Part shown: positions 28,420 to 41,390 of the stretch, in pieces
Position numbering within the stretch: position 1 is the first letter of the stretch
Layout: every line of letters starts with the position of its first letter
Source of the DNA: Candidatus Uhrbacteria bacterium GW2011_GWF2_39_13
Lineage (GTDB): Bacteria; Patescibacteriota; Patescibacteriia; UBA9934; GWF2-40-263
Assembly (NCBI GenBank): GCA_000993535.1
Contig: LBWG01000007.1
Span: 1-41,448 of the forward strand
Reading direction: 5' to 3'
DNA length: 41,448 nucleotides
Notes under the pieces: generated by a model
The model's input: only the letters and a program-made list of their open reading frames with translations
What the model was told of the DNA's origin: nothing
Databases searched by the model: none
Program-made: the position numbers and the translations under genes

Positions 28420-28576
28420 ACATTTTAAAATTCGCGATCTTGCGGCTTACGGGCGCCCGCTGACTCCGCTCTCCCTATTCTGAATAGGGGTCGCGCAGCT
28501 CAACCCGCCCGAACGAACGTTCGACGGTCGGGCGGGCAGCCCGTGCACCGCAATCTCATCGAATTTTAAAATGTTT
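28418..28576. repeat. 159-nt element with perfect 17-bp terminal inverted repeats and nested GC-rich hairpins
   Basis: aaacattttaaaattcg ... cgaattttaaaatgttt; inner ttgcgg/ccgcaa, acgggc/gcccgt, gcccgc/gcgggc; apical ccctattctgaatagggg and cccgcccga...tcgggcggg. Confidence 0.85.
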
Positions 28577-39486: not shown

Positions 39487-40923
39487 ATGGCAAAAGTGCT
39501 TTATCGTGTTTATCGACCATCAACATTTCAGGAGGTAAGCGGACAAGAGCACGTCGTTTTGACCATTCAAAATCAATATGCTTCTGGATCTTTGGCTCAT
39601 GCTTATTTATTTACTGGACCTCGTGGAGTTGGAAAGACAACCATGGCACGTCTTATAGCCAAGTTGGTTAATTGTCAGACTCCTCAAGGAAATGAACCTT
39701 GTAATGTTTGTTCTTCTTGTCTTGCGATTACTGCAGGACAAACGCTAGACATTTATGAGATCGATGCAGCTTCTCATACGGATGTTGATAATGTTCGTGA
39801 GAATATTATTCAATCGGTTCGTTTCATTCCAAATCAGTTAAAGAAAAAAGTATATATTATTGACGAAGCACACATGCTTTCGTCCTCTGCGTTTAATGCA
39901 TTATTGAAAACGCTTGAGGAACCTCCTGAGCATGTGTTGTTTTTGTTAGCTACAACGGAAATTCACAAAGTTCCAGAAACGATCATCAGTCGGTGTCAGC
40001 GTTTTGATTTTAAGCGCATTAGCTCACAAGAACTTGTGAAGAGAATGCAGGGGATTGTGAAGGAGGAAGGAATAGATGTCGATATAGAAGTTCTTGAAGA
40101 AATTGCGCGTCATAGTGGGGGATGCGCGCGTGACGCAGAAAGTCTGCTTGGACAAGTGTTGGCTTTAGGCGACAAACAGATCACTCTAGACCAAGCTCGG
40201 TTGGTTTTGCCTGCCACTCAACGTGTGTTGATTGAGTCCTTTACTCATGCATTACAAAATAAACAAGCGGCTCAGACGATTCTGTTATTAAATACGTATC
40301 TCGAACAAGGTGTTGATCTGGATTATTTCATTTCCGATGTGATTGGATGGTTTCGGGATCGTTTATTAGACGCTGTCTCTACAACACCTACATCTGAGCA
40401 AATACCTTTTTTTCAGTATGCTCTTGAACAATTGTTACGAGCTCAAAAAGAAAGTGGACGTGAACAGATTCCCCAACTTCCTATTGAATTAGCGATTCTC
40501 AGGATTTGTGGAAAAGAATCTTCAAAAGAACCTTTTGAATCACAAAAAAAAGAAGAAGAACCTGTTCTTCCGGAAGTCACCAAAACCGTTTTTGATACGG
40601 TTCCTGTGTTGAGTCTGGAACAGGTAAAAGAAAAGTGGCCTGAGGTGTATGCTCAAATTAAAGCATGTAATGCTTCTTTACCACTCATAATGCAGTCTTG
40701 TGAGGTCTCTCGTCTTGACGGAGATCATATGGATCTTGGGTTTGAGTATGATCTTTACGTTCAAACCGTGAACCAAGAAAAAAATCGTCTCGTGATCGAA
40801 GGGGTATTGGAAAAAGTTTTAGGTAGACGTTTTCGTGTTCGGGCCATTCAGTCCAAGAATAAACCTGAACAGGATGAGACGATACAGAGTCTTGTACAGG
40901 AATTTGGAGGAAGTCTTATTTAG
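39487..40923 (+). CDS. dnaX: DNA polymerase III subunit gamma/tau
   Basis: LYRVYRPSTFQEVSGQEHV, HAYLFTGPRGVGKTTMARLIAK, four-Cys zinc site, VYIIDEAHMLSSSAFNALLKTLEEPP. Confidence 0.97.
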   Translation: MAKVLYRVYRPSTFQEVSGQEHVVLTIQNQYASGSLAHAYLFTGPRGVGKTTMARLIAKLVNCQTPQGNEPCNVCSSCLAITAGQTLDIYEIDAASHTDVDNVRENIIQSVRFIPNQLKKKVYIIDEAHMLSSSAFNALLKTLEEPPEHVLFLLATTEIHKVPETIISRCQRFDFKRISSQELVKRMQGIVKEEGIDVDIEVLEEIARHSGGCARDAESLLGQVLALGDKQITLDQARLVLPATQRVLIESFTHALQNKQAAQTILLLNTYLEQGVDLDYFISDVIGWFRDRLLDAVSTTPTSEQIPFFQYALEQLLRAQKESGREQIPQLPIELAILRICGKESSKEPFESQKKEEEPVLPEVTKTVFDTVPVLSLEQVKEKWPEVYAQIKACNASLPLIMQSCEVSRLDGDHMDLGFEYDLYVQTVNQEKNRLVIEGVLEKVLGRRFRVRAIQSKNKPEQDETIQSLVQEFGGSLI

Positions 40924-41024
40924 AAAAATTCGTCATGGTTTATAGACGGGTCTATCTGCTTGAAAGAAAAAGGGAGATTAGGTACTATTTTGTCGTTAAA
41001 AGAGATATTCAAGTTCGTATAGTA

Positions 41025-41197
41025 GTGAGCTTACATCCCGGATCTGGCTAGGCGCCAGATTCCGGTCGCTCACTCGGGAAAGATCAAACTCTGAGTTTGC
41101 TCTTTCCGCTCGTTCGCTCCCGGATCTTGTGGGACAAGATTCCGCTCGTTCGCTCGGAAGAAATCAAACTAGGAGCTTGATTTCTTCTCTCGCTCAC
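41025..41197. repeat. A-B-A'-B' array of four hairpins joined by CGCTC-type linkers, directly abutting tRNA-Gln
   Basis: Hairpins 41038-41065, 41078-41106, 41122-41143, 41157-41187; linkers cgctcactc / cgctcgttcgctc / cgctcgttcgctc / cgctcactc. Confidence 0.88.
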
Positions 41198-41271
41198 TCC
41201 CGGATCGTCTAACGGCAGGACGACTGGTTCTGGTCCAGTTAATCGGGGTTCGAATCCCTGTCCGGGAACCA
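41198..41271 (+). tRNA. tRNA-Gln (anticodon CTG), CCA encoded
   Basis: Acceptor tcccgga/tccggga, anticodon arm actgg-ttctggt-ccagt, T-arm cgggg-ttcgaat-ccctg, then A-CCA. Confidence 0.93.
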
Positions 41272-41307
41272 ACAAAATAACTCACCCGATTGGTGAGTTA
41301 TTTTGTT
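41271..41307. terminator. bidirectional intrinsic terminator after tRNA-Gln
   Basis: aacaaaataactcacc-cgatt-ggtgagttattttgtt, 16-bp perfect stem. Confidence 0.9.
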
Positions 41308-41390
41308 TCATATACGGACAGAGATTTTAAATATCTAGCCCCCATTTCTGGATCAAGCGTAAATTTGCTGGGGTAGCCTCCGTTACCCAT
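41298..41390 (-). CDS. possible 30-aa micro-ORF MGNGGYPSKFTLDPEMGARYLKSLSVYETK
   Basis: ATG..TAA on -, start overlaps the stop of an upstream frame running off the window (ATGGGTAA). Confidence 0.3.
   Translation of the reverse strand: MGNGGYPSKFTLDPEMGARYLKSLSVYETK

Follow-up and report, generated by a model that had tools for sequence, protein, structure and literature searches.

A family of mobile-looking small hairpin repeats in Patescibacteria includes a tandem array before a tRNA-Gln gene

Introduction

The BOX elements of Streptococcus pneumoniae are small intergenic repeats built of hairpin-forming modules, the inner of which occur in a variable number of tandem copies (PMC3049150), and REP sequences and BIMEs are imperfect hairpins of 20–40 bp with unpaired constant flanks that lie in intergenic DNA (PMC3733652). 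Here, we analyzed a stretch of 41,448 nt from Candidatus Uhrbacteria bacterium GW2011_GWF2_39_13 (contig LBWG01000007.1; hereafter the window), in which an array of hairpins precedes a tRNA-Gln gene, and found that this array is a member of a previously unannotated family of dispersed, mobile-looking small hairpin repeats in Patescibacteria. A literature search returned no paper describing such a hairpin-repeat family in this phylum. The unit of the family has the layout X–hairpin A–L1–hairpin B–L2–X, in which the first X is a copy of a gene edge, hairpin A ends in the complement of X (X′), and L1 and L2 are linkers; one to three tandem units are found per locus.

The nearest kinds to this repeat are MITEs and the modular BOX elements. 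As in MITEs, the units are short (about 80–200 nt, less than about 600 bp), noncoding, palindromic, and strongly base paired, and they have flanking direct repeats (z = 19.4) and a precise empty/filled site (genomes G008 and G026); however, the direct repeat varies in length and the element holds the complement of its own target. With respect to the terminal inverted repeats of MITEs, X′ complements X but is locus specific, and a search confined to Y1 transposases found no parent transposon. The likeness to BOX elements lies in the modular hairpins, whereas the phylum is another one and the sequence, for which Rfam gave no bacterial repeat match, differs as far as seen; the free stems, constant linkers, mostly tRNA-edge sites, and opening copy of the adjacent gene edge are further differences. 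REPs and BIMEs (GTAG and CGTC super-families) share imperfect hairpins and unpaired constant flanks in intergenic DNA, but here the stem sequences are unconserved, neither tag is present, and the distribution of Y1/RAYT genes does not follow that of the copies. Finally, integrative elements at tRNA genes are similar in their insertion in the T-loop or 3′ end of a tRNA or tmRNA gene and in the displaced copy of the tRNA end, although the units described here are only about 80–200 nt long, have no integrase gene, and are also found at tRNA 5′ ends and at non-tRNA sites.

Structure of the Array

The array lies downstream of a gene that ends at 40923 and that we take to be dnaX from the kind of relatives found; its closest named relative is from Candidatus Uhrbacteria nzgw366 (65% identity). 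A consensus scan detected a promoter-like site (TTGAAA-17-TACTAT) at 40960–40988, which is also present 5′ of the array in genome G005, and a weaker second one (TTAAAA-16-TATAGT) at 40996–41023, which is not clearly conserved in G005 and ends 12 nt ahead of the first copy of X. Between the promoter-like site and the tRNA-Gln (CTG) gene, two units of about 80 nt at 41025–41197 repeat the order A–L1–B–L2 with a period of 80 nt and 77% identity over 70 nt (all features are on the forward strand). Coordinates, spacing, and folds agree that the four hairpins in two units described in the first-pass annotation are real.

In the first unit, a copy of X (41036–41044) opens hairpin A (41038–41065), which is supported by its fold and by X′–X complementarity over 114 units, and is followed by L1 (TCGCTCACTCGG; 41066–41077), hairpin B (41077–41107), and L2 (GCTCGTTCGC; 41108 to about 41117–41119). 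The second unit comprises a copy of X (41118–41126), hairpin A′ (41121–41144, from its fold), L1 (41144–41155), hairpin B′ (41157–41187, an inverted repeat of 93%), and L2 (41188–41197). Linkers were placed by conserved alignment columns and the linker consensus, and both B hairpins lie within matches to R1, a covariance model of L1-B-L2 that was built from an alignment of 24 B units (41063–41118, E value 6.8e-6, with covariation at 13 of 13 helix pairs, and 41143–41198, E value 1.3e-7). The linkers had been called constant; this largely stands, but within the array they are near-constant (CGCTCACTC, CGCTCGTTCGCTC, CTCGCTCACTC).

The tRNA-Gln gene occupies 41198–41271 (ARAGORN; 56 bits with the Rfam tRNA model), and its first 9 nt, TCCCGGATC at 41198–41206, are the sequence that opens both A and A′. 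All three occurrences are exact, as had been reported, and the last linker, which ends at 41197, does run straight into the tRNA. The copy at the tRNA start is presumed to be the original target. The 3′ arm of hairpin A (X′) is complementary to its own copy of X and also to the later ones. A perfect 16-bp inverted repeat with A/T-rich arms on both sides follows the tRNA (41271–41307; inverted-repeat search) and is likely a terminator. Elsewhere in the same genome, G000:C1:911-963 is a 93% identical copy of window positions 41255–41308, which comprise the tRNA-Gln 3′ end and this inverted repeat.

The 173-nt strand of the array folds with a z score of −4.2 relative to dinucleotide shuffles, and leader, tRNA, and terminator together reach −7.3 with the tRNA intact. 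Because the minimum free energy fold nests A′ inside an alternative pairing of B with B′, the four-hairpin fold has several near-equal alternatives; four simple hairpins are seen in the centroid once the tRNA is included. Located between a promoter-like site that also stands before the G005 array and the tRNA gene, the array would be expected within the primary transcript of the tRNA.

A Repeat Family in Patescibacteria

In a BLAST search of its own genome the array retrieved only itself and weak short matches, and the only two R1 matches in that genome are the two units of the array. At tRNA-Gln loci of many relatives, the same layout is found with other stem sequences. R1 matches are present in 27 of the 43 genomes of the family, in 4 of 30 other genomes of the order, and, in a patchy distribution, in 14 of 287 genomes sampled across the phylum, two of which have 12 and 17 copies. 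Outside the phylum, R1 had no match at an E value of 0.1 or less in 25 genomes, a set that has no internal positive control, the model itself matching in Patescibacteria. A family of repeats, which the first-pass annotation had proposed as one expanding from the tRNA 5′ edge, is therefore borne out by the other genomes, but its sites extend beyond tRNA 5′ edges.

The stems of the family differ and yet stay paired, as had been noted for the array: in the 24-unit B alignment, 83% of cells are paired compared with 38–50% in slid controls, and all 13 pairs show changes on both sides. A pattern that specifies the linkers and leaves the stem free identified 11 places in the 43 family genomes, every one of which pairs 6–8 of the outer 8 positions. 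The same pattern gave 66 matches in viral contigs, which average 4.0 paired of the outer 8; as a group these do not form the stem, and we took them as chance matches rather than family members. In Rfam, only tRNA exceeded the gathering score in the window and the sampled loci, the other matches being weak ones to unrelated eukaryotic models.

The linker consensus is ..YTCGYTCG for L1 and.CTCRCTC for L2, and on the opposite strand the linkers read as CGAG/CGAA/TGAG repeats, that is, (C/T)GA(G/A). In the best register, about 91% of cells in the opposite-strand linkers are Watson–Crick, wobble, G.A, or A.A pairs, versus 58% unpaired on the sense strand; because the linkers are nearly invariant and have a 4-nt periodicity, this pairing is a structural suggestion to which covariation does not speak.

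Genomic Sites of the Units

Of the 79 family matches, 53 have an intact tRNA gene or tmRNA no more than 200 nt away, with tRNAs of 14 amino acids represented; this tally is biased toward tRNA because tRNA-Gln loci were the main training set of R1. Further matches adjoin displaced tRNA- or tmRNA-like ends (L177, L208, L221, L222, and L223). In the 5′ type, to which the window's array belongs, a promoter is followed by one or more units and the tRNA (Gln, Lys, Val, Ile, and Asp). In the 3′ type, an intact tRNA and its terminator are followed by a shortened tRNA-like copy with a unit in its T-loop, and this copy closes with the CCA-bearing 3′ end of the tRNA, after which comes another terminator; examples are His, Leu, Glu (three in tandem at L207), Lys, Cys, Gly, and Arg. 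The third layout is a direct 3′ duplication, as for tRNA-Pro at L213, whose last 25 nt are found again behind the unit.

Copies do not always abut tRNA genes: units are also found at tmRNA 3′ ends, near 16S rRNA, and at start codons and terminators. The latter two kinds of site are seen in copy-rich genomes from other classes, where units lie directly ahead of start codons or, reversed, directly behind terminator-like sequences. The genes behind the former look to us like rplX, rpmJ, gapA, and trmD, names that we assigned by eye.

Several individual loci are worth describing. In two species of one genus (L172 and L176; G028:C44 and G010:C1), a unit interrupts the T-loop of a tRNA-Lys (TTT) copy, beside which lies an intact tRNA-Lys. 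At L207 (G003:C15), three tRNA-Glu-like fragments stand in tandem; every one of them has a separate terminator and a separate T-loop unit, and when folded the fragments might resemble acceptor/T-arm minihelices ending in CCA. Units in L222 and L223 (G008:C5 and G008:C4) adjoin tmRNA-like 3′ ends (GTCCACCA), so tmRNA genes are apparently used as sites too. In L264–L279 (G127, G310, and G327), units stand right before start codons, apparently including those of ribosomal protein genes, and the start codon falls within the duplicated or paired segment, which could possibly affect translation. Units L280–L283 are in G311, from another family of the phylum, and some of them lie inside a long inverted repeat, which in L283 measures about 20 bp.

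The Gene Edge within the Unit

The copy of TCCCGGATC that opens the window's array illustrates a wider rule, namely that units tend to open with a copy of the sequence that follows them. In 114 nonredundant units, X, as read after L2, recurs on the upstream side (z = 19.4 versus permuted partners), and X′, as read before L1, is complementary to X (z = 17.5 versus permuted partners). X tracks the gene: it is TCCCGGATC or TCCGGGATC in Gln variants, GGGTCAGTA for Lys, and GGGCGTTTAGC for Val. Its length varies from about 4 to 25 nt, unlike that of a fixed target-site duplication.

Empty and Filled Sites

Two genomes of one genus provide an empty and a filled site. In both G008 and G026, the promoter region of tRNA-Gln (TTG) is common up to TATTATTCC; in G008, 12 nt separate TATTATTCC from the tRNA, whereas in G026 TATTATTCC is followed by 12 nt, an 81-nt unit that opens with TCCCGG, and the tRNA, so that the insert lies exactly at the tRNA 5′ end. 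These distances were counted from the sequences, the gap in the MAFFT alignment falling a few bases off. More generally, the distance from promoter to tRNA-Gln is mostly 10–43 nt without an array (65 nt in L029) and 96–220 nt with one. At the dnaX–tRNA-Gln locus, the array is present in the window's genome (G000), G003, and G019; in G002 only CTTGCGTTCGCTCAC is left, and G017 and G043 lack the array.

In G003, four loci, among them tRNA-Cys, tRNA-Gly, and tRNA-Glu, have one 97-nt core in common, whereas their hairpin A varies with the locus, and the units of L207 have identical A hairpins and linkers with different B stems. Cores shared across loci and empty and filled sites fit copying between loci and recombination at linkers better than vertical inheritance alone. 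The G005 locus is 80% identical to that of the window over 350 nt, and its hairpin A has CTGAC/GTCAG where the window has CTGGC/GCCAG, a double compensating change. This similarity suggests that the window's array was inherited vertically; together with the two matches in the window's genome, it means that the window shows no recent movement.

A Second Palindromic Repeat

The window also contains, at 28422–28566, a second palindromic repeat that is apparently unrelated to the hairpin array and consists of a nested hairpin with the internal motif GATGAG...AAGATCGC and an outer stem of free sequence. In G000, it is found directly 5′ of the tRNA genes for Arg, Leu, Cys, Ser, and His (L142, L146, L149, L156, and L157) as well as elsewhere. 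With one query, BLAST gave 17 matches in this genome, a figure in which a single place is sometimes counted in pieces or on both strands. The query also matched 1–6 times in each of four further genomes of the genus but had no match in three genomes from other families of the order, and the repeat has no Rfam match.

Discussion

We consider it probable that the array consists of two tandem units of a small noncoding, nonautonomous palindromic interspersed element of Patescibacteria (MITE/REP/BOX-like) that inserted at a tRNA edge. The point of entry would have been precisely the 5′ end of tRNA-Gln, downstream of the promoter, and insertion would have left a copy of the target (TCCCGGATC) upstream, so that the tRNA gene stays whole; the copied target and its complement would have become the outer part of hairpin A, and a tandem duplication of the unit would have followed. 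The primary transcript would thereby gain a hairpin leader of about 160–200 nt, presumably cut off by RNase P. Family membership, covariation, target copies, X′–X pairing, the empty/filled pair of one genus, and the core shared across tRNA loci are all observed; enzymatic insertion, tandem growth via the repeated X and linkers, and normal processing of the leader are what we infer in addition. The variation of hairpin A among loci around a common core counts against a clear mobile boundary. As for a mobilizing enzyme, no transposase, integrase, or autonomous partner emerged, which counts against this reading: a search for Y1 transposases (PF01797) had no match in the copy-rich genomes G171, G127, G129, G310, and G327, and the stretch between two units in L220 holds one 600-aa membrane-protein-like frame and, by eye, no evident transposase.

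It is rather unlikely that the array is instead a selected leader RNA of tRNA-Gln, in which hairpins with constant unpaired linkers would serve to bring in a protein or to control processing, while X′ could switch between the copy of X in hairpin A and the tRNA acceptor strand. The first-pass suggestion of a structured precursor in the tRNA leader is supported in part, by the position between promoter and tRNA, which recurs in many genomes. Stems that covary while linkers stay, the complementarity of X′ to both copies of X, and the retention of the array in G000 and G005 with a compensating change would suit such an RNA; nevertheless, several relatives make the same tRNA without an array (L028, which is nearly empty, L030, L037, and L043), Rfam offers nothing beyond weak unrelated eukaryotic models, and units also turn up in the opposite orientation behind tRNAs, ahead of start codons, and behind terminators, which leaves them without a shared RNA strand or gene class. 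A leader function is not needed to explain the sequence of the array. Regulation specific to Gln (T-box-like or codon related) is rejected because units occur at both Gln anticodons and at tRNA genes for 13 other amino acids.

The linker pairing on the strand opposite the tRNA sense raises a further idea, which we regard as speculative and improbable: a new transposable hairpin that would move as a folded single strand and build the complement of its target into itself (X′-L1-B-L2-X), forming one continuous hairpin through Watson–Crick and tandem G.A pairs in the linkers that a recombinase would recognize.

A reading without either mobility or RNA function, which we judge quite unlikely by itself, is that local tandem duplication and template-switch repair of quasi-palindromes, copying arm onto arm, gave rise to the seemingly compensatory stems by mutation alone. 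Template switching reportedly both generates and preserves hairpin stems, with multibase compensatory changes (PMC8794818), and quasipalindrome mutations have been reported in Escherichia coli (PMC7202029). Since template switching alone can make and keep paired stems (PMC8794818), covariation is no proof of RNA function. The process would account for the mirroring of X by X′, and tandem units with different B stems between identical linkers do exist, but it does not account for the recurrence of the linkers at unrelated loci and across distant classes of the phylum, or for one core at several different tRNA genes of one genome. Template switching may well act on top of insertion of the element.

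Movement by a Y1 (REP-associated) transposase in a REP/RAYT system is very improbable and largely refuted: imperfect hairpins with constant single-stranded flanks in intergenic positions, sometimes at convergent gene ends, recall REPs (PMC3733652), but the linker consensus (TCGYTCG / CTCRCTC) has no consistent GTAG or CGTC tag, and Y1 genes do not track the copies, being absent from the five copy-rich genomes but common in copy-free genomes such as G017 and G011. A tandem pseudo-tRNA origin of the 5′ type is likewise rejected, the unit of about 80 nt being near tRNA size but matching only in the X segment.

A family of tRNA-edge elements with gene-sparing duplication of the edge and stems that stay paired while changing freely would be a natural test bed for target choice by palindromic elements, and it would also test whether compensatory changes in hairpins reflect selection or template switching. 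In such genomes, annotation pipelines pass over the long structured leaders or interrupted copies of many tRNA genes.
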